This document shows, in pieces, positions 257 through 10,668 of a stretch of 10,668 bases of DNA (its first letter is position 1; each line of letters starts with the position of its first letter). The stretch comes from Bordetella parapertussis. Lineage in GTDB: Bacteria > Pseudomonadota > Gammaproteobacteria > Burkholderiales > Burkholderiaceae_C. The notes below the pieces were generated by a model that saw only the letters and a list, made by a program, of their open reading frames with translations, ran no database searches and was not told the DNA's origin. The stretch is taken from positions 1-10,668 of the forward strand of contig CALQBT020000045.1 of NCBI GenBank assembly GCA_943328885.2. The letters are read 5' to 3'. Made by a program: the position numbers and the translations under genes.

Positions 257-1390
257 TCAGGTCGAGGTCGCAGCGCTGCGTGCAGTGGCCAGCGTGCGGT
301 GGAAATGTGAGATGGCCCCTTCGAACAAGCCGAAGGTGAAGTGCTCGTTAGCCCGGCTGGCCAGGCCTTTCTGGATCGCGCAGATCACCTCGCGGTCTTC
401 GGCGGCGCCGACCTCGCGAACGAAATCGGCGTCGCGCAGCACGGCGGCCCTGGCTTGGTCGTCTGCGCCGCGAACGTCGGCCAGCGTGTAGCTGATCTCC
501 AGCGTTCGGTCCACGCCCATCGGCTCTAGCACCACCAGATTGGTGTGGCGCGACAGCATCGTGACGAGCACGTTCGGGAACAAGTGGTACACATAGGTCA
601 GCAGGCCCTCCACGCGGCGCTCGGCAGGCGGCACGTCGGCCAGCTTGCTGATGCGCCGGAACGGGTAGGTCACGCGGCAGTGGCGCCCGAAGGGCTCGAT
701 CAGGTTGAGGTTGTCAAAGCCGTAGGGGTAGAAGCTTTCACGGTGTGTCGACCGGATGTGGTAGCCCTCGATGAAGCCTTCGAGCATCACCTTCCAGTTG
801 GCTTCGACGATGCGTTCGCGCGTGGCGAGCAGTTCGTACTCAGGCGGCAGCAAAGACTGCACTTCGTCGAGTGAGTCGTCGCTGACCAGCGCTGCGTCCT
901 GGGTGATGAACACCAAGCCCAGGCGCTCCTGCACTTGCACCGGCACCAGCCCATGGCAGCTTTTGTCCAGACCGGGGAAGCCATGCGGGTCGGGCACCTG
1001 GCGCAGTTGGCCGTCTAACGCGTAGGTCCAACCGTGGTAGCGGCAGGCAAAGGCCGGTGCGTTGCCGGTGCCACTGGCGACCTGCATGCCTCGGTGCCGA
1101 CAGGCATTGCGGAAGGCGCGCACCACGCCGTCCTTGCCGCGCACGGCCAGCAGCGGCGTGCCGGCGGCATCGCGCGCCACGAAGTCGCCGGGCTGCGACA
1201 GCGCCGCCGATGGGCAAAACGCCGTCGGCGTGCGGCGCATCACCTGTTCGATCTCGGTGGCCAGCAGCTCGGGCGACCGGTAATTCGCCACCGGCTCGCG
1301 CCACACCGCGGGCGCCAGATCGGTGCTGCGCTGGGCCATGTGGTCCAGCACACGCTGGGCCACTTGCTGGTCATTGGCGAGTATCGGCAT
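257..1390 (-). CDS. Rieske non-haem iron oxygenase, alpha (catalytic) subunit
   Basis: This is a 377-residue terminal oxygenase component. The Rieske [2Fe-2S] ligands are C97-x-H99 and C116-x2-H119. The mononuclear iron site is E208-x2-H211-x4-H216 (in Gly-Tyr-His-Ile-Arg-Ser-Thr-His), with a probable third ligand at about D332 in a Glu-Asp-Arg-Glu segment. Such enzymes use O2 and electrons from a separate reductase to hydroxylate aromatic rings, demethylate, or oxidise alicyclic or quaternary-amine substrates in the cytoplasm. No reductase or small beta subunit lies in the window, so the reductase is encoded elsewhere. Most relatives carry Asp where this one has Glu208; carnitine monooxygenase (CntA) is a known Glu case. 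The start at 1390 was chosen because an AGAAAG precedes it by 8 nt; an in-frame ATG at 1429 has no clear ribosome site. The molybdopterin gene lies 173 bp upstream on the same strand. Substrate unknown. Confidence 0.92.
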   Translation of the reverse strand: MPILANDQQVAQRVLDHMAQRSTDLAPAVWREPVANYRSPELLATEIEQVMRRTPTAFCPSAALSQPGDFVARDAAGTPLLAVRGKDGVVRAFRNACRHRGMQVASGTGNAPAFACRYHGWTYALDGQLRQVPDPHGFPGLDKSCHGLVPVQVQERLGLVFITQDAALVSDDSLDEVQSLLPPEYELLATRERIVEANWKVMLEGFIEGYHIRSTHRESFYPYGFDNLNLIEPFGRHCRVTYPFRRISKLADVPPAERRVEGLLTYVYHLFPNVLVTMLSRHTNLVVLEPMGVDRTLEISYTLADVRGADDQARAAVLRDADFVREVGAAEDREVICAIQKGLASRANEHFTFGLFEGAISHFHRTLATARSAATST

Positions 1391-1563
1391 GTCACGAACT
1401 TTCTGGCTGCGGTGGGTGTCTGCGCGCATGAAGCCTGCGCGCGCGCTGTTGGACCGACGACGCCACCTTTGGAGGGTCTTGCGTCTCGACGCTGTGGATC
1501 ACGGGGATGGCCTGCCGCCGCTGTACCAGCGTGCCGATCAAGCCCTCGCGGCTTGCCGTCGGC

Positions 1564-3897
1564 TCACATGGAATGCCGGCCATACAAAGCCAGTTCGGCG
1601 GCCTGGAACTCCACGCCGTCACCGCTCACATCATCGGCCATGAAGTGGTCGGCTTGCGCGCGCGAAGGCGACAAACGGCCTTCGGGGCCCAGCGGCAAGC
1701 GGTCGGTCGGGCCGAACTGTGCCTCGAGCGCTTGGACCTCGCCAGCGCTCAGCGCGGTGATGCGGCAGGGCACGCCCTTGAGGTGCGGAATACCTTGTTC
1801 GCGGTCGATCAGGTCGGGGTGGTCGTCGGCGGTGAGTTGCGCATCGGAGAAGGCCCACATCCCGGACATCACCGCCAGCCCGCGCTCGGACTCCGGCTTC
1901 CACCAGCCGTGCGGCACCCGCACCAGACCGTCGGGCATGCTGTCTCGCGGCACCACGCGCGCGACCATCGCACCGGTGAAGGTCGTCACACGAGCCCATT
2001 GACCTTCGGTCAGCTGCTGGCGTGCCGCTTCTTGTGCGCTCAAATAAAACGTTGGGTCTTGCGCGCGCTTGCGCAACTCGGGGATGTGGCGGTGGCCGGT
2101 GCGGTAGTACTCGTCGTCTGGCAAACCGATGAACAAGCTCAAGGGGTACTCGGCCGTGGGCGTGGCGGCTTCGCGGTAATACGGCAATGAATCAAAACCC
2201 AGGTCGTTCAGCACCGATGAATCGAGTTCCACTTTGCCCGATGGCGTGGCAAAACCCGTCAACAGGTACTTGCGCTCCTCGTTCTTGCGGCCAGGCATCT
2301 TGCCGCTGGCAGCCACCTCGGCCCAGCTGACCTTGGAAGGCTCGAACTTGTGGTTGATCACCTCCTCGTCGGTGGTCCACGGGAAATGCTCGCCCAGGCC
2401 CATGCGCTGGGCCAATTCGTGCCAGAAGAAGGTGCCTCCCTTGCACTCGCCGGGTGGCTCCATCGCCTTCGGGCTGACGCCGGCCATGATGCAGTCTCGC
2501 TCCAACCATGAGTCACCCGGCAGCACAAAGTCGGCGAGCTGCGCAGTGGGTGTCATCATGTGTTCGTAGGCCACGATCAGGTCTTGCTTCATCAGGCCCT
2601 CGTAGATGCGCTTCGTGTTGGCAAACGACATCAAGGTGTTGTTGGCCAGCGAGAGAAAGGCCCGCACCGGGTAGGGGTCGCTGTCGGCCATGGCCTTGAA
2701 CACCGCCATCGGGTTGGCCATGTAGCAGCCACCCACCAGGTTGGCATAGCGCTGGCCCCAGACCTTCTCGGTGGCATCGCCCAAGGCCTGCATGCCCCGG
2801 TAGGTGAACACCGGAAACTCATCGGCACCCAATTGCATGGCTTTTTGTTCGTCACTGAGCAGGTGATGCAGCTCCAACTCGGTGTCTGAACGCACGCCGG
2901 GGTTGAAACCGACAAAGGGTTCGCCGCCCTTGATGTCGAGGTTGCCGCACAGCGCACGCAGCGCGCATTGCAGCCGGATGGCCGAGGTGCTGGAGACCTG
3001 CTGGTCGGTGATCGGCGACCAGGGGATGGCCGCCGGGCTGCTGCCGGCATACAGCCTTGCGGCAGCGGCGATCAGCTCGGCGCTGACACCGGTGATCTGG
3101 GCGACCCGTTCCAACGGGTACTGCTTGACGCGCTGCGCAAAGGCGTCGAAGCCCACGGTCCAGTCGCGCACGAAATCCTGGTCATACAAGCCTTCTTCGA
3201 TGATCACGTGCAGCCAGCCCAGCATCATCGCGGCGTCGGTGCCGGCACGCAGCGGCAGCCACAGGTCGGCGGCTTCGGCGTTGCCACTCTTGCGCGGGTC
3301 CAGCACGATCAGCTTGGCGCCGTTGGCCTGCGCGGTCCTGATCGACTTGTACTCCAGCGTCCAGCTGTGGCGGCGCGGGTCGTGGCCGAAGAGCACGATG
3401 CACTTCGAGTTCAGCACATCCGCTCTCGGGTACCAGCCATAGACCATGCGGTTGACGGCCGCCGTGTTGCCCATGCAATAGGCCACGCCGCTGATGAAGT
3501 TGGGCGAGCCGATCAAGTTCATGAAGCGACGCGTCAGCCCGTTGTCGTTGCCGAAGTTGGCCGCGCTCGCGGCCACGGCCAGCGCCTGCGGACCGTGGCG
3601 CTGGATCACCTTCGTCAGGCCCTCGGCAATGCCGTCCATCGCGCTGCTCCACGACACCTGCTCCCAACTGCCGCCACCGCGCGCACCCTTGCGCCGCAAG
3701 GGGTGCATCAGCCGGTCGGGATGGGCAAAGGATTTGGGCGCGTAAGCGCCCTTCATGCAGATCACGTCCTTGAACAGCGGGTGGTCGCGCGTGGTCACCT
3801 TGACCACTCGGCCGTCGCTGATCTTCACGGCAATGGGGCAGAAGCCGTCGCAACTGGTGCAGACCAGGTTCTTGCTGGTTTCGAGGACAGCGCTCAT
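1564..3897 (-). CDS. Acetylene-hydratase-like molybdopterin (W/Mo-bis-MGD) enzyme
   Basis: The 777-residue protein belongs to the DMSO-reductase superfamily. An N-terminal [4Fe-4S] site is C13-x2-C16-x3-C20 with C47 as fourth ligand and K49 two residues on. The probable metal ligand is C141 (Ala-Tyr-Cys-Met-Gly-Asn). Mid-regions contain Leu-Ile-Val-Leu-Asp-Pro-Arg (196-202) and Leu-Pro-Gly-Asp-Ser-Trp-Leu-Glu-Arg (459-467). The C-terminal cofactor-binding domain has Ala-Thr-Pro-Ser-Gly-Lys-Val-Glu. Asp17 directly after the second cluster Cys, K49, C141, W179 and W293 match the landmarks I recall for acetylene hydratase (about 730 residues), which hydrates acetylene to acetaldehyde without net redox. 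No twin-arginine signal is present, so it should be cytoplasmic. No ferredoxin-type or membrane subunit gene is adjacent. The start has GGGAG 9 nt upstream; the frame stays open up to 4227 but that extension is Arg/Pro-rich and looks non-coding. Superfamily membership is certain, acetylene-hydratase kinship strong, substrate unknown. Confidence 0.93.
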   Translation of the reverse strand: MSAVLETSKNLVCTSCDGFCPIAVKISDGRVVKVTTRDHPLFKDVICMKGAYAPKSFAHPDRLMHPLRRKGARGGGSWEQVSWSSAMDGIAEGLTKVIQRHGPQALAVAASAANFGNDNGLTRRFMNLIGSPNFISGVAYCMGNTAAVNRMVYGWYPRADVLNSKCIVLFGHDPRRHSWTLEYKSIRTAQANGAKLIVLDPRKSGNAEAADLWLPLRAGTDAAMMLGWLHVIIEEGLYDQDFVRDWTVGFDAFAQRVKQYPLERVAQITGVSAELIAAAARLYAGSSPAAIPWSPITDQQVSSTSAIRLQCALRALCGNLDIKGGEPFVGFNPGVRSDTELELHHLLSDEQKAMQLGADEFPVFTYRGMQALGDATEKVWGQRYANLVGGCYMANPMAVFKAMADSDPYPVRAFLSLANNTLMSFANTKRIYEGLMKQDLIVAYEHMMTPTAQLADFVLPGDSWLERDCIMAGVSPKAMEPPGECKGGTFFWHELAQRMGLGEHFPWTTDEEVINHKFEPSKVSWAEVAASGKMPGRKNEERKYLLTGFATPSGKVELDSSVLNDLGFDSLPYYREAATPTAEYPLSLFIGLPDDEYYRTGHRHIPELRKRAQDPTFYLSAQEAARQQLTEGQWARVTTFTGAMVARVVPRDSMPDGLVRVPHGWWKPESERGLAVMSGMWAFSDAQLTADDHPDLIDREQGIPHLKGVPCRITALSAGEVQALEAQFGPTDRLPLGPEGRLSPSRAQADHFMADDVSGDGVEFQAAELALYGRHSM

Positions 3898-4480: not shown

Positions 4481-5401
4481 TCAGGCTGCGCGCAGATCGT
4501 AGCCCAGTCGTGGGAAGTGCACGACGACCGTTCCCACCAGCGGATCGTCGCGGCGCAGCGCGATCTCGTCGAGCCCGGCATAGACCAGTTCGCCGCTCAC
4601 CACGTCGCGGCCGTAGTCGTCGGCGCGAATCCTGACCTCGGCGCCCAGCGGCGGATCTTCGGGCCAGGGCGTCGAGGGCTCGGGCGCCAGCGGCTCGCTA
4701 TGGCGGGCGACTTCCAGCGCGCGCCCGGGTGCCATCGGTGTGGGCGTGCCGTGGCCGAAGGCGCGAACCCGCGACATCCAGGCCGCGATGTGCGGATAGC
4801 GTGCCAGCTCATGGGCCAAGCGATCGGTGCGCGCCGTGAAGAACCAGAGCGGGTGGTAGACCGCGAGATCGGCGACACAGGGCGCTGGCCCTGCGAGCCA
4901 GGCCCGACCATCGGCCAGCATGGCTTCGACGTCGGGCAACTGCGCGCGCACCAGCGGCGCATTGCGCAGCGCGGCGCGCCGCATCGTGGTCTCGTCGGGC
5001 GCTGGCAGGCCGCGCATCACCGAGCGGTCAGCCTGCAGACCTGCGGGCAGGTGGTCCAGGTTCAGCCCCGAGACGAAGAGCGTGATCGGGCGCATCAGGC
5101 GGTTTTCTGCCCAATAGGCCATGGCCTCAGCCAGTGCCGCTTGCGCGGGCGGAAAAAGCGTCGGCGTGGGCGCACGCCGTTCGAGTTCGCGCACGATGAG
5201 ACGGGTATCGCAATAGAGATCAGCGCCGACCTGGAGCACCGGCGTGCGACGGTAGCCGCCGGTCAGCGGCACCAGATCAGGCTTGGGCGCGATCGACGGG
5301 ATGATCACCGAATGCCATGCCAGGCCCTTGAAGCCGAGTGCAAGACGCACCTTCTCGGCAAAATTGGAGAAGTCGTAGTGATGCAGGATGAGATCGGACA
5401 T
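4481..5401 (-). CDS. Glutathione S-transferase family protein with C-terminal extension
   Basis: The 306-residue protein starts with a thioredoxin-fold GST domain. Its first strand, Leu-Ile-Leu-His-His-Tyr, leads into Asp-Phe-Ser-Asn-Phe-Ala-Glu-Lys-Val-Arg, with S12 the likely glutathione-activating residue. P54 in Arg-Thr-Pro-Val-Leu is the conserved cis-proline. C64-D65-T66 occupies the place of the usual Glu/Asp-Ser that holds the glutathione gamma-glutamyl group. An all-helical GST C-domain follows to about residue 240. The last 65 residues are an extra module rich in beta-type sequence (Val-Val-Val-His-Phe-Pro-Arg near the end), making the protein longer than the usual 200-230. Such cytoplasmic enzymes conjugate, isomerise or dehalogenate electrophiles, or protect against reactive intermediates. 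AGAGG lies 10 nt before the ATG. It is divergent from the acyl-CoA dehydrogenase operon and upstream of the molybdopterin and Rieske genes on the same strand. The specific reaction is unknown. Confidence 0.9.
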   Translation of the reverse strand: MSDLILHHYDFSNFAEKVRLALGFKGLAWHSVIIPSIAPKPDLVPLTGGYRRTPVLQVGADLYCDTRLIVRELERRAPTPTLFPPAQAALAEAMAYWAENRLMRPITLFVSGLNLDHLPAGLQADRSVMRGLPAPDETTMRRAALRNAPLVRAQLPDVEAMLADGRAWLAGPAPCVADLAVYHPLWFFTARTDRLAHELARYPHIAAWMSRVRAFGHGTPTPMAPGRALEVARHSEPLAPEPSTPWPEDPPLGAEVRIRADDYGRDVVSGELVYAGLDEIALRRDDPLVGTVVVHFPRLGYDLRAA

Positions 5402-5666
5402 GGCGGCAGAACCTCTTGAGCGAACCTTGAGCGAACACGGCGAATCGACGGTGGACACCCTGATTGTCGTCAAGCCCGCCCCAGAGGCCATGCTGCGGGT
5501 CTGACCTTGGGCGCAGGCCGCTCGCCGGGATCCTCGCGACCCCCTCGGTGCGGCGTATCCTGACCTGCCGGCTGGGGTTCGGGCTTGGACGCTCTCGTAG
5601 AATTGGGGTCCGCGTGCCGACGCGTCTGCAGCCGGCACCACCCCGAAACAAGACGGCAGGAGCGAG
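5402..5666. promoter_or_regulatory. Divergent promoter region between the GST gene and the acyl-CoA dehydrogenase operon
   Basis: The 265 bp lie between two outward-facing starts and must contain promoters for both directions. For the plus strand, TAGAAT (5598-5603) is a fair -10 about 60 bp upstream of the first dehydrogenase, but the -35 at 17-bp spacing (GGGTTC) is poor, so an activator may be needed. For the minus strand, TTGACG (5473-5468) is a fair -35 with only a weak -10 at 18-19 bp. An 11-bp tandem repeat lies close to the GST start. No regulator gene is in the window. Confidence 0.4.
5415..5436. repeat. Tandem direct repeat of 11 bp in the GST leader
   Basis: CTTGAGCGAAC occurs twice, back to back and identical, at 5415-5425 and 5426-5436. 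The copy nearest the GST start begins 14 bp before that ATG and overlaps its ribosome site. The 11-bp period is about one helical turn, which would place two bound proteins on the same DNA face. A 9-bp match, TTGAGCGAA, recurs at 6893-6901 between the first two dehydrogenase genes. Confidence 0.6.
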
Positions 5667-6887
5667 ATGACCATGGCGACCGATGAACTTGCTGCGTTCC
5701 GCACGGAAGTACATGGCTGGATCGAGACGAATTTCCCGAAAACGCTGGTCGGCCGCGGGGCCGAGTTGCAGAGCACCAGCACCGGTGGAGGGCCGTTGCC
5801 CGAGGACCTGCAGCTGTGGGTGCGCCGCCTGGGTGAGCGCGGCTTCGGCGCCCCGACCTGGCCCACCGAGTTCGGGGGTGCGGGTCTGAAGGGTGCACAG
5901 TCGCATGTGCTGGCCGACGAACTGCACAAGGCAGGCGCCTTCAACCCGATCCCGCAGCTCGCCGGCATGGGCGTGACCATGGTGGGCCCGACGATCCTCG
6001 AGTACGGCACGGACGAGCAGAAACAGCAACACCTGCCACGCATTGCGAATGGCTCGGTTCGCTGGTGCCTCGGCCTGTCCGAACCCAACGCGGGCTCCGA
6101 CCTCGCGTCGCTGAACACGCGCGCCGAGGATCGCGGCGATGCCTGGGTGGTCAATGGCCAGAAGGTCTGGACCTCGGGCGCGGATGTTTCGCAGTGGTGC
6201 GGCGCGCTCGTGCGAACCGATGCCAGTGCGAGCAAGCGCGACGGCATCAGCTTCTTGTTGCTGCCAATGGACCAGCCTGGCGTGCGCACGCGGCCGATCC
6301 CGCTGATCGCCGGGGCCTCGCCGTTCTGCGAGACCTTTTTCACCGATGCCCGCGCCGCGAAGTCCGACCTGCTCGGACCGCTGAACAAGGGCTGGACCGT
6401 GGTCAAGCGCTTGCTGCAGCACGAGCGGGCCAGCCAGACCAGCACGCGCACCGCAGCGGGCGCGAAGGAAGAGCGCTTCCAGGACATGGCCAAGCGCTAC
6501 GTGGGCATGGACGAGTCGGGTCGCCTGGCCGATGCCGATCTGCGCACGCGCCTGGCGATGCACTTGATGGATTCGAAGGCCCACGCGCTGACGGTGTCGC
6601 GCATCGTGGCCGAGGCCAAGGGCAATGTCGAGGTCAGCGCCGCGGCCTCAATCCTCAAGAACTCGGCCACCGCCGTGTCGCAGACGCGTGCGGAGCTGAC
6701 GCTCGAGCTGATGGGCAACCAGGGTCTGGGCTGGGAAGGCACGCGCTTCGCGCAGGACGAACTCGCGGCGGTGCGCAGTTGGCTCTCGGGCAAGGCGATG
6801 TCGATCTACGGCGGCTCTTTCGAGGTCCAGAACAACATCATCGCGAAGAACATCCTGGGCCTGCCCGAGACAACCCAGAAGGGCTAG
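5667..6887 (+). CDS. Acyl-CoA dehydrogenase, probable catalytic subunit of a heteromeric pair
   Basis: The 406-residue flavoprotein has the full acyl-CoA dehydrogenase architecture: helical N-domain with Thr-Glu-Phe-Gly-Gly (67-71), beta-domain with Leu-Ser-Glu-Pro-Asn-Ala-Gly-Ser-Asp (137-145) and Asn-Gly-Gln-Lys-Val-Trp-Thr (163-169), and a helical C-domain. It removes two hydrogens between C2 and C3 of an acyl-CoA, passing electrons through FAD to electron-transfer flavoprotein. The catalytic base position of medium-chain enzymes is Gly here (Tyr-Gly-Gly, 381-383). The alternative isovaleryl-CoA-dehydrogenase-type base is present as E253-R254. ATG codons at 5667 and 5673 follow AGGAG by 4 and 10 nt; either could be used, changing only two residues. 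It is first in an operon of three dehydrogenases. The architecture resembles one partner of the mycobacterial FadE26/27 and FadE28/29 pairs, which is an inference from motifs only. Confidence 0.93.
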   Translation: MTMATDELAAFRTEVHGWIETNFPKTLVGRGAELQSTSTGGGPLPEDLQLWVRRLGERGFGAPTWPTEFGGAGLKGAQSHVLADELHKAGAFNPIPQLAGMGVTMVGPTILEYGTDEQKQQHLPRIANGSVRWCLGLSEPNAGSDLASLNTRAEDRGDAWVVNGQKVWTSGADVSQWCGALVRTDASASKRDGISFLLLPMDQPGVRTRPIPLIAGASPFCETFFTDARAAKSDLLGPLNKGWTVVKRLLQHERASQTSTRTAAGAKEERFQDMAKRYVGMDESGRLADADLRTRLAMHLMDSKAHALTVSRIVAEAKGNVEVSAAASILKNSATAVSQTRAELTLELMGNQGLGWEGTRFAQDELAAVRSWLSGKAMSIYGGSFEVQNNIIAKNILGLPETTQKG

Positions 6888-6970
6888 CCGCTTTGAGCGA
6901 AGGCCTTCCCGCCCGAAACAGCGCATCGCAATCAGCCTGACGCAAACCGATTCATGAAGGAGCTCGCTCG

Positions 6971-8107
6971 ATGGCGGCACTGACGACAGAACAGACGATG
7001 ATCCGCGAACAGGCCAGCGCCTGGGTTCGCGAACAGGCGCCGGTACAGGCCTTCCGCAAGCTGCGCGACAGCGGTTTGCCCGCGCGCTTCGAGCCCACCA
7101 CCTGGGCTGCGATGGTGGAGCTGGGCTGGACGGGGATCATCGTTCCCGAACAGTACGGCGGCTCGGGGCTCGGTTATCTGAGCTTTGGCATCGTGCTCGA
7201 GCAGACGGGCCGTCAGCTGACGGCTTCGCCGCTGTTCGCCTCCGCGCTGGTCGGCGCGACGGCGCTGATGCTGGGCGGCAACGACGAGCAGAAGCAGGCC
7301 TATCTGCCCAAGATCGTGGACGGCAGCGCGATCTTCACCTTGGCCGTGGACGAGAGCACGCGCCATGCGCCGAGCCGCACGGCGCTGCAGGCCACGCGCC
7401 ATGGCGCCGGCTACCGTCTGAGCGGCAGGAAGACCTTTGTGCTCGAAGGCGGGGCGGCCACGCACCTGATCGTGGCGGCGCGCACCAGCGGCAGCGCCGG
7501 CGACACGAACGGCATCACGCTGTTCGTCGTGCCCGCACAGGTCAGCGGCATCACCCGCACCGAGCTCAGCATGGTGGACAGCCGGGGTTATGCGGACATC
7601 GCGTTCGACGCCGTCGACCTGGCTTCGGACGCAGTGCTCGGCCAGGCCGATGCAGGCTTCGCGTTGCTGGAGGCGACGCTGGACCGGGCCCGTGCGGGCC
7701 TGGGGGCCGAGATGCTTGGCACGGCCGCACGCGCGTTCGACATGACGGTGGACTATCTCCAGACCCGCGTGCAGTTCGGCCAGGTGATCGGCGCGTTCCA
7801 GGCGCTTGGCCATCGTGCGGCGGCGCTGTTCACGCAGCTCGAGCTGAACCGCTCCTGCGTGGAAGCGGCGCTGCAGGCGATCGACGCCGATGCGGCCGAC
7901 ATCGCCGAGCTCTGCTCGCTGTCGAAGGCGCGCACCGGTGCGTTCTTGCATCAAGCCTCGAACGAGCTGATCCAGATTCACGGCGGCATCGGCATGACTG
8001 ACGAGTTTGACGCGGGCTTCTACCTCAAACGCGCGCGCACGCTCGAAGCCACCTTCGGCAACCAGGCCTTTCATCGCGACCGCTACGCGACGCTGAACGG
8101 TTTTTGA
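6971..8107 (+). CDS. Acyl-CoA dehydrogenase-like protein, probable non-catalytic partner subunit
   Basis: The 378-residue protein has the acyl-CoA dehydrogenase fold: Val-Pro-Glu-Gln-Tyr-Gly-Gly-Ser-Gly-Leu-Gly (58-68), a weakened flavin/substrate segment Leu-Ala-Val-Asp-Glu-Ser-Thr (124-130), Arg-Val-Gln-Phe-Gly-Gln (266-271) and Gln-Ile-His-Gly-Gly-Ile-Gly-Met-Thr (335-343), the last typical of the second C-terminal helical region. Both known catalytic-base positions lack Glu. The isovaleryl-type site is Asp (D238-R239), and the medium-chain-type site is occupied by Phe at about 362. The usual Thr-Glu before Pro is also replaced. This fits a partner subunit that completes a heterotetramer with the upstream gene product. 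An excellent AAGGAG lies 8 nt before the ATG, and the gap to the upstream gene is 83 bp, so co-transcription is likely. Heteromer formation is inferred. Confidence 0.9.
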   Translation: MAALTTEQTMIREQASAWVREQAPVQAFRKLRDSGLPARFEPTTWAAMVELGWTGIIVPEQYGGSGLGYLSFGIVLEQTGRQLTASPLFASALVGATALMLGGNDEQKQAYLPKIVDGSAIFTLAVDESTRHAPSRTALQATRHGAGYRLSGRKTFVLEGGAATHLIVAARTSGSAGDTNGITLFVVPAQVSGITRTELSMVDSRGYADIAFDAVDLASDAVLGQADAGFALLEATLDRARAGLGAEMLGTAARAFDMTVDYLQTRVQFGQVIGAFQALGHRAAALFTQLELNRSCVEAALQAIDADAADIAELCSLSKARTGAFLHQASNELIQIHGGIGMTDEFDAGFYLKRARTLEATFGNQAFHRDRYATLNGF

Positions 8108-8164
8108 TCCGAAACACGCTGTGCAGGCAAGCGCTACAAGTGCCCGCACCGGAGCCAGCCTGCG

Positions 8165-9307
8165 ATGACCCGATTGCCAACAATGAACGAAGCCAGCGCG
8201 CTCGAAGACCAACTTGTGCTGCGCGCCCGGCGCTTTCTTGCCGAGCATGTGACACCCTGGCTGGAGGCGGGCGAGAAACCTTGGCATGACGCGGCGCTGT
8301 GCGCTGGTGCCGCGGCAGCCGGCATATTCGGCATCTCGGTGCCCACCGAATTCGGCGGCAGCGGCGCCTCGTTCACCTGCAAAGCCCGTGTCGTCGAAGT
8401 GCTGGCCGAGGCCGATTTCGGGTTGGCGATGGCGCTGATCAATTCGCACAACACCGCCGAAAACATAGCGCGCAACGCCCACCCGGACGTGGCGCGGCGC
8501 TTCGTCCCGGAGATCGTCGCTGGCCGCATGGCGGGCTGCACCTCGCTGACCGAACCCGGCGCGGGCTCGGATTTCGCGGCGATCACCACCCGCGCCACCC
8601 GCATCGCCGGGGGCTGGCGGCTGGAGGGCGAGAAAGCCTGGATCATCAACGCCGTGCGCACCGGTGTCGCGGTGTGCTACGCGCAGACCGAGCCCGGCAG
8701 CGGCGCGGCCGGCATCGCCTCGTTCGTGGTCGACGCCGCGCGCGCAGGTTTCGTGCGCGGCGGCCCGATCACCCGTGCGCTGCCGGCGCTGGGCACAGGC
8801 TCGTACCGGCTGGACGGCTACCTGGCCAGCGATGAGGAACTGCTGGCACCGGCCGGGCAGGCCTTCAAGCGCGCGCTCACATCGATCAACGGCGCGCGCA
8901 TCTACGTCGCTGCGATGTGCAACGGCATGGTGGCCGAATCGCTGCGTGTGGCCGCTGCGTACGGGCGCGAACGCAAGACTTTCGGCGCGCCGCTCGCCGG
9001 CCACCAGTCGTGGCGTTTCGCGCTGGCCGACGCCTCGGTCGATCTCGAAGCGGCACGCCTGCTGGTCTATGACGCGGCCCTGCGGCTCGATGCCGGCGAG
9101 GACGTGCAGGGCGCGGCGGCACGCGCCAAGATATTCGCCACCACCATGGCGCACCGGCAGGTCGGGGCGCTGTTGCACTGCATGGGCGCTGCGGGCTTTG
9201 CCGACCGCTACCCCTTCCTGCGCCATCTCGAAAGCGTGCAGGCGGCGGCTTTCACCGACGGCTCGACCGAGATGCTCAAGGAGCGTATCGCGCGCAGCTT
9301 CGTGTAG
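8165..9307 (+). CDS. Acyl-CoA dehydrogenase family protein
   Basis: The 380-residue third dehydrogenase of the operon keeps the full flavin-binding motif Leu-Thr-Glu-Pro-Gly-Ala-Gly-Ser-Asp (128-136) and Gly-Glu-Lys-Ala-Trp-Ile (155-160), Val-Pro-Thr-Glu-Phe-Gly-Gly-Ser-Gly (59-67), and Arg-Lys-Thr-Phe-Gly in the C-domain (270-274). At the medium-chain-type base position the sequence reads Thr-Asp-Gly-Ser-Thr-Glu, so D365 would stand in for Glu; the isovaleryl-type position is Ala244. It is more complete than its upstream neighbour and probably acts alone, oxidising a different acyl-CoA or a later intermediate. The gap to the upstream gene is 57 bp. GGAG lies 10 nt before the ATG at 8165; an in-frame ATG at 8183 is a less supported choice. 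Family certain, substrate unknown. Confidence 0.92.
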   Translation: MTRLPTMNEASALEDQLVLRARRFLAEHVTPWLEAGEKPWHDAALCAGAAAAGIFGISVPTEFGGSGASFTCKARVVEVLAEADFGLAMALINSHNTAENIARNAHPDVARRFVPEIVAGRMAGCTSLTEPGAGSDFAAITTRATRIAGGWRLEGEKAWIINAVRTGVAVCYAQTEPGSGAAGIASFVVDAARAGFVRGGPITRALPALGTGSYRLDGYLASDEELLAPAGQAFKRALTSINGARIYVAAMCNGMVAESLRVAAAYGRERKTFGAPLAGHQSWRFALADASVDLEAARLLVYDAALRLDAGEDVQGAAARAKIFATTMAHRQVGALLHCMGAAGFADRYPFLRHLESVQAAAFTDGSTEMLKERIARSFV

Positions 9308-9981: not shown

Positions 9982-10668
9982 ATGACCACATTGACCGGCA
10001 CCGCAGGCGCGGACACATTGACGGGCGGGGCGGACAACGACACGCTGACCGGCGGCGCGGGCAACGACACCATCGACGGCGGGGCGGGCATAGACACCGC
10101 GGCCTATGCCGGGCTGCAGGCCGACTATGTGATCAAAGCCTCATCATCGGGCCAAGGCGTGACGGTGGCCGATACCAGCCTCGGTAACGGCGATGAGGGT
10201 AGCGATACGCTCATCGGCGTCGAGAAGCTGTCGTTTTCCGACGGCACGTTGCCGGTCGAGGTGGTAGTGGCGCGCGCCGAACAACGGGTCAACAGCTACA
10301 TCGCCGGCGACCAGACGAATTCGTCGATGACCAAACTGGCCGATGGTGGCTATCTGGTGACCTGGAATTCCAACGGCCAGGACGGCAGCGGCTGGGGTGT
10401 CTACGGTCAGCGCTTCGATGCGGGTGGCGGCCGGGTGGGTGGCGAGTTCCGGCTCAACACCAGCGTCAATGCCGATCAGTATTTCACCGATGAAAGTGCC
10501 GTGCAGGCGGTGGCGGGTTTGCCTGATGGCGGATTCGTGGCGGTCTGGCGTTCAGGTTCAGCTGATCCGAGCGATTGGGGCGTCGTTGCGCAGCGCTTTG
10601 ACGTCGCTGGCAACCCGGTTGGAACCGAGATGCTGGTCAACACCTACACCGATGACCAGCAGCGCGAC
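9982..10668 (+). CDS. RTX-type calcium-binding repeat protein, N-terminal part (runs off the window)
   Basis: The frame is open from ATG 9982 to the last base, giving 229 residues. Residues 6-41 are four RTX nonapeptides, the third being the classic Gly-Gly-Ala-Gly-Asn-Asp-Thr-Ile-Asp, which form calcium-bound beta-rolls. A linker domain of a type often attached to such repeats follows, ending in Glu-Lys-Leu-Ser-Phe-Ser-Asp-Gly-Thr (81-89). From about 103, repeats of about 61 residues begin, each with Asp-Gly-Gly-Tyr/Phe, a Trp, Gln-Arg-Phe-Asp and a closing Val/Leu-Asn-Thr. There is no Sec signal peptide, as expected for type I secretion, whose signal would lie at the unseen C-terminus. A GAGG lies 10 nt before the ATG. 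Such proteins are usually secreted or surface-bound adhesins or exoenzymes; this one's role is unknown and it appears unrelated to the catabolic genes. Confidence 0.85.
   Translation, partial: MTTLTGTAGADTLTGGADNDTLTGGAGNDTIDGGAGIDTAAYAGLQADYVIKASSSGQGVTVADTSLGNGDEGSDTLIGVEKLSFSDGTLPVEVVVARAEQRVNSYIAGDQTNSSMTKLADGGYLVTWNSNGQDGSGWGVYGQRFDAGGGRVGGEFRLNTSVNADQYFTDESAVQAVAGLPDGGFVAVWRSGSADPSDWGVVAQRFDVAGNPVGTEMLVNTYTDDQQRD
9997..10104 (+). repeat. Four RTX nonapeptide repeats (coding)
   Basis: The four 27-bp units encode GTAGADTLT, GGADNDTLT, GGAGNDTID and GGAGIDTAA. The first and last depart from the Gly-Gly-x-Gly-x-Asp-x-hydrophobic-x consensus, as is usual at the ends of an array. Four units are few, enough for about one or two calcium ions in a short beta-roll. 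Confidence 0.85.
10288..10641 (+). repeat. Coding repeats of about 61 residues in the RTX-type protein
   Basis: Residues 121-160 and 182-221 align directly: Asp-Gly-Gly-aromatic, two hydrophobic residues, Trp five or so on, then Trp-Gly-Val, Gln-Arg-Phe-Asp, a Gly-rich turn and Asn-Thr. A third unit starts at 221 (Thr-Tyr-Thr-Asp-Asp-Gln). The period and the beta-strand/Gly-turn pattern suggest a propeller-like or stacked beta structure that continues beyond the window. Confidence 0.75.

Follow-up and report, generated by a model that had tools for sequence, protein, structure and literature searches.

A Bordetella parapertussis protein of the acetylene hydratase subfamily with altered substrate-pocket positions, a possible hydratase for a larger substrate

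The stretch analysed here (the window) comprises 10,668 nucleotides of contig CALQBT020000045.1 from Bordetella parapertussis (assembly GCA_943328885.2). Its main subject is a gene whose product, the query, was suggested by an initial annotation to share the fold of acetylene hydratase (AH) and perhaps its non-redox hydration chemistry. Between positions 1564 and 3897 there is one open frame, which runs on the minus strand from an ATG at 3897 to a stop codon at 1564-1566 and encodes 777 amino acids (aa). A GGGAG stretch is located immediately 5' of the ATG, and the protein contains the Pfam domains Molybdopterin, Molydop_binding and Molybdop_Fe4S4. The gene and its relevant motifs are:

1564..3897, minus strand: AH-subfamily enzyme of 777 aa with predicted bis-molybdopterin guanine dinucleotide (bis-MGD) and 4Fe-4S cofactors, the query (open frame, search, tree and model)
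3838..3861, minus strand: Cys-x2-Cys-Asp-x2-Cys motif, residues 13-20, contributing three Cys to the cluster and the Asp equivalent to AH Asp13 (alignment)
3751..3759, minus strand: Cys47-x-Lys49, counterparts of AH Cys46 and Lys48 (alignment)
3466..3477, minus strand: Cys141-Met142-Gly143-Asn144, predicted metal ligand and pocket position, corresponding to AH Cys141 and Ile142 (alignment)

The structure best matching the query was PDB 2E7Z, the AH of Syntrophotalea (Pelobacter) acetylenica, with 610 bits compared to 197 bits for the runner-up structure. Both proteins share 44% identity across 685 aligned residues. An AF2 model of the query (pLDDT 92) superposes on 2E7Z at 1.4 Å over 703 residues, and structure comparison of this model by Foldseek and VIA-align ranked AH first by a wide margin. 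The predicted AH fold covers the chain in full, the linker of domains II and III included. In a 53-sequence tree, read as splits of an unrooted tree, the AH subfamily split off with 100/100 support, and the corresponding support was 0.991 in a tree of 339 sequences. The smaller tree grouped query and AH separately from Fdh, Nap and a large MopB group of L088-type molybdopterin oxidoreductases (P0241-P0360; for some, the source gives the name thiosulfate/polysulfide reductase chain A), and hence outside the sampled redox groups. The L088 group is the nearest outside group and joins the AH subfamily at 98.6/100. Both trees were built without PsrA, DmsA, Pht and catechol dehydroxylases. PhsA reference sequences are also lacking, because the curated PhsA family search gave no match in 36 genomes nor in 14 controls; among the matches of an L088-based search for catechol dehydroxylases, none was so named. 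The NCBIfam cut-off was reached by none of the 25 families listed of 27, the best being PhsA with 267.6 of 694 bits, so that the query is below the cut-offs of the curated formate dehydrogenase, PhsA and NapA redox families among those listed. Taken together, search, tree, structure model and the invariant residues described below strongly support that the query belongs to the AH fold and subfamily, as the initial annotation had proposed. The AH subfamily, part of the DMSO reductase (MopB) superfamily, is already established, and most of its members are known to lack characterisation, so the query does not represent a new class.

The catalytic core of AH is retained in the query. Query C13, C16, D17, C20 and C47 align to AH C9, C12, D13, C16 and C46, and query K49, C141, W179, W293 and D298 to AH K48, C141, W179, W293 and D298. 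All ten query residues had been pointed out from the sequence alone, with three said to share their number with AH; in fact four do (C141, W179, W293 and D298). A sample of 325 subfamily sequences, in which the query and AH weigh heavily, shows no variation at the positions of AH Cys141, Gly143, Asn144, Trp179, Trp293 and Asp298 (325/325). The position of Asp13 is D in 314 with a gap in the remaining 11, and that of Lys48 is K in 323 with a gap in two. This conservation of the Asp, C141, W179, W293 and D298 positions indicates a residue match beyond chance. The Asp was also predicted to be rare in redox relatives, and this was found within the sample: the Asp13 position is Gly in 7/7 FdhA-type and 4/4 NapA sequences and His in all 120 listed members of the L088 group. 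According to PMC12096430, Asp13 is specific to the AH subfamily, whose other members are uncharacterised. From the alignment to Asp13, Asp17 would be expected to face the metal, and the full conservation of Cys141 is consistent with its predicted role as metal ligand.

The match proposed for AH Trp472 did not survive the comparison. Query Trp464, within LPGDSW, aligns to AH Trp462, and AH Trp472 sits in a stretch inserted relative to the query in the 2E7Z search alignment. Among 201 relatives, the Trp472 column is a gap in 153 and otherwise F (27), Y (13), W (3) or L (3), and in a separate alignment it is mainly I or V among 121 query-group proteins. The column is thus ambiguous in the alignments, but a conserved Trp is absent.

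A further difference between both proteins concerns the substrate pocket. In the AH structure, Ile14, Ile113 and Ile142 together with Trp residues surround the substrate. The three Ile positions correspond to Gly18, Ala113 and Met142 in the query. The commonest trios at these positions were Ile-Trp-Ala (110 of the 325 sequences), Gly-Ala-Met (63), Gly-Ala-Ala (24) and Cys-Ala-Met (14), and Ile-Ile-Ile occurred in only two, AH and its 99% copy P0122. The query was therefore not classed as AH itself. The residue volumes of the trio sum to 500 for AH and 312 for the query. The median is 312 in the query's subclade (range 209-360; 103 of 110 members with all three letters), compared to 483 for 124 wider-clade members outside it. 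The small trio is a trait of this inner subclade, as values across the larger 157-member clade range from 209 to 535; those among members of the anaerobe-rich AH clade, itself supported by 64.8/83 in the unrooted splits, range from 263 to 527. The wider clade (99.9/100) also holds the Ile-Trp-Ala proteins of proteobacteria (e.g. P0183 of Paraburkholderia sp. C35, and those at L045 and L053), which are uncharacterised and share the invariant core of the query, but have a large trio in place of its small one. Since the pocket Ile positions of AH are Gly, Ala and Met in the query, acetylene is an unlikely substrate, and the smaller residues suggest a larger one. An Ile-to-Ala change in the AH pocket is described to cause a large loss of activity (PMC6013536), and acetylene derivatives including propyne are reported not to be converted by AH (PMC6308299, PMC6013536).

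Genes for electron-transfer subunits were not found beside the relatives. Open reading frames (ORFs) with a ferredoxin-type motif occurred at 4 of 80 relatives' loci, several of which are short, and all four were at least 2.8 kb away. No such motif was detected at seven further AH-like loci (L104-L106 overlap three of those genomes). As a control, it was found for 4/4 NapA loci, inside the FdhA chains in 6/6 cases and at one of two L088-type loci, with an adjoining ORF at L088 and none at L090. A Tat-like motif near the N-terminus was present in none of 320 proteins. The lack of both a near ferredoxin ORF and a Tat-like motif fits a soluble enzyme that, like AH, has no electron chain of its own. 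The query is most likely a single-subunit enzyme, although gene context cannot prove a monomer.

The gene is located among the following genes of the window, all identified by domain search:

257..1429, minus strand: Rieske / ring-hydroxylating oxygenase alpha subunit, directly downstream of the query gene
4481..5401, minus strand: glutathione S-transferase (GST)-like protein, upstream; the start codon was selected visually and the scan began at 5413
5667..9307, plus strand: three acyl-CoA dehydrogenases at 5667-6887 (pimC-like), 6971-8107 (pimD-like) and 8165-9307

The adjacent dehydrogenases at 5667-8107 resemble the large and small subunits of pimeloyl-CoA dehydrogenase, and all three are below the curated pimC/pimD cut-offs. 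The start of an RTX-repeat protein (PF00353) at 9982-10668 runs off the contig. An acyl-CoA catabolic island, as the surroundings had been named, does exist on this contig in the form of the three dehydrogenases; as a conserved context it was not recovered. Homologues of the dehydrogenases were found at 6 of the 80 relatives' loci and those of the Rieske and GST genes at none, in a search that was repeated at E 1e-5. The island was thus rejected as a functional clue. A different GST-fold gene is located upstream at one relative's locus, L066.

Five kinds of acyl-CoA gene were also tallied at the loci of the relatives. Of 33 query-clade loci, 14 had at least one such gene within 3 kb, four at 3-6.5 kb and three beyond, compared to 8, 8 and 5 of 47 other loci. 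A same-strand gene of this type at most 300 bp downstream was found at 7 of 27 query-clade loci with room and at 3 of 43 others. In the query clade, these genes encode an enoyl-CoA hydratase (L017, L018, L019 and L023), a MaoC hydratase (L027) or a CoA-transferase (L005 and L006). When loci were collapsed at 80% identity, the query clade had acyl-CoA genes near in 7 of 13 groups and further out in three, and the other loci in 8 and 6 of 19, respectively. The downstream-gene contrast was reduced to three groups in each set. A link of the query's clade to acyl-CoA metabolism is therefore possible but weak.

Upstream of the relatives, 20 of 69 genes cluster as divergent helix-turn-helix genes (13, 3 and 4 in three clusters), and the Pfam tally of non-exclusive matches is 13/69 for HxlR, 7/69 for MarR and 6/69 for TetR_N. 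A divergent regulator is more often associated with the Ile-Trp-Ala genes (19 of 20). The remaining one, L032, is the only one in the query's clade and none occurs in the window, so that these regulators say little about the query.

Several loci have further features. L104 (G158, taken to be Cupriavidus sp. 2SB) carries two AH-like paralogues, 62% and 56% identical to the query and approximately 8 kb apart. An aldehyde dehydrogenase gene precedes the first and an enoyl-CoA hydratase gene follows the second by 59 bp; genes for an acyl-CoA ligase, an SDR protein, TetR and MarR are also present. The pair is adjoined by a flavodoxin-fold gene (L104:13716-14633), of which no homologue was found at the 80 relatives' loci. 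In P0136, an AH-clade protein of 919 aa, a flavodoxin-fold / FMN reductase domain is fused to the N-terminal side of the AH-like enzyme. In G148, a RuBisCO large-chain-like gene (L105:10882-12213) is divergent from the AH-like gene.

The host genome is a metagenome-assembled genome, 61.65% complete, with matches over the cut-off for FdhA, the molybdate-binding ModA and three haem-copper oxidases; WtpA was not found at this completeness. AH-like genes are rare in the sampled genomes: counting the host each time, matches occurred in 4 of 300 genomes of the order (a fifth, G010, is of the L088 type), 3 of 369 of the class and 3 of 398 of the phylum. Many named hosts of relatives are, as we assume, aerobes.

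Based on these results we propose, with a probability of roughly one half, that the query is a cytoplasmic single-subunit Mo/W hydratase of the AH subfamily acting on a substrate larger than acetylene. Cys141 would hold a bis-MGD centre with Mo or W, accompanied by a [4Fe-4S] cluster, and Asp17, like Asp13 of AH, would serve at the metal to activate either the water or the substrate. Water would be added without net redox change to a C-C triple (or activated double) bond, with Gly18, Ala113 and Met142 leaving room for extra substrate groups. The query is like AH in predicted fold, cluster Cys, Asp13, Lys48, Cys141, Trp179, Trp293 and Asp298, and differs from it in the pocket trio, the missing Trp472 match, approximately 60 extra C-terminal residues, its neighbours and a host with haem-copper oxidases. 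More tentatively, the clade of the query as a whole may comprise metallopterin hydratases of aerobes for substituted alkynes or larger unsaturated compounds, e.g. alkynoic acids or CoA esters.

Several points weigh against the proposed hydratase. The reaction is one that we infer from sequence. The pocket size is an estimate from residue volumes, and other side chains could fill the space left by the small trio. AH is described as highly O2-sensitive (PMC12096430), yet the host codes for haem-copper oxidases. More than 30 residues precede the first Cys in 73 of the 320 proteins, in part owing to over-long ORFs, and some relatives may be exported. The acyl-CoA signal shrinks upon collapse to a hint from too few groups to lean on. 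Finally, the characterised enzymes nearest to AH, the catechol dehydroxylases absent from our tree, are redox-active (PMC7028382), and the flavodoxin-fold domain of P0136 and the flavodoxin-fold gene of Cupriavidus would also suit redox work.

Because of the latter two observations, the main rival is a redox enzyme that would receive its electrons from soluble carriers, for example to hydroxylate or reductively dehydroxylate a ring compound, aromatic or not. We consider this unlikely, though less so than the other alternatives. Dadh, Hcdh, Cadh and Cldh, the catechol dehydroxylases known from gut Actinobacteria, are reported to cluster nearest AH and to have homologues in aromatic degraders (PMC7028382); for Cadh, 4Fe-4S and membrane partners have been described. 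In being redox enzymes they are, by description, unlike the query as favoured here. The HxlR/TetR/MarR-type regulators upstream of some relatives would fit aromatic or xenobiotic catabolism. However, no ferredoxin-type partner occurs beside the relatives and the AH-type linker region is retained. Moreover, the Asp, Gly-Asn and Asp298 are invariant as in AH, whereas in the redox groups sampled (FdhA-type, NapA and L088) the Asp is replaced by Gly or His.

Another non-redox or internally redox-neutral reaction, such as isomerisation, transhydroxylation or sulfur transfer, appears improbable. The module of the metallopterin ergothioneine synthase, 27% identical to AH, is reported to perform sulfur transfer on the same scaffold (PMC9516567), and pocket positions vary widely across the subfamily, so that the chemistry may vary as well. 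However, all catalytic positions of AH are retained in the query, and no fused or adjacent desulfurase was found among the neighbours, which were partly annotated. A true AH of an oxygen-breathing bacterium is very improbable: subfamily membership, the catalytic core, ModA in the host and reported aerobic acetylene degraders with Mo-dependent activity and no known gene (PMC7858054) would agree with it, but the query lacks the Ile trio, an Ile-to-Ala change in the pocket being detrimental in AH, and is outside the AH-proper branch (100/100, the effect of rooting on labels being checked for wider groups only).

AH has been described as the only known non-redox Mo/W enzyme and the sole characterised member of its subfamily (PMC12096430), and the spread of the family has been read as a history of acetylene use (PMC10100899). 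Among the results listed by literature searches, there was no published work on the query's clade. New here is the split of the subfamily by its pocket trio, and with it the caution that growth on acetylene can hardly be deduced from homology to the AH family, as only two of the 325 sequences in our biased sample keep the AH trio, which bears on genome surveys. A relative with the catalytic residues of AH and a putatively wider pocket would be a natural case for testing if the chemistry of Asp13 reaches other alkynes, and is a possible catalyst for alkyne hydration. If the clade does consist of hydratases for larger substrates, the superfamily would contain hydratases other than AH, and homology-based calls of acetylene hydratase in genome surveys would mostly not imply growth on acetylene.
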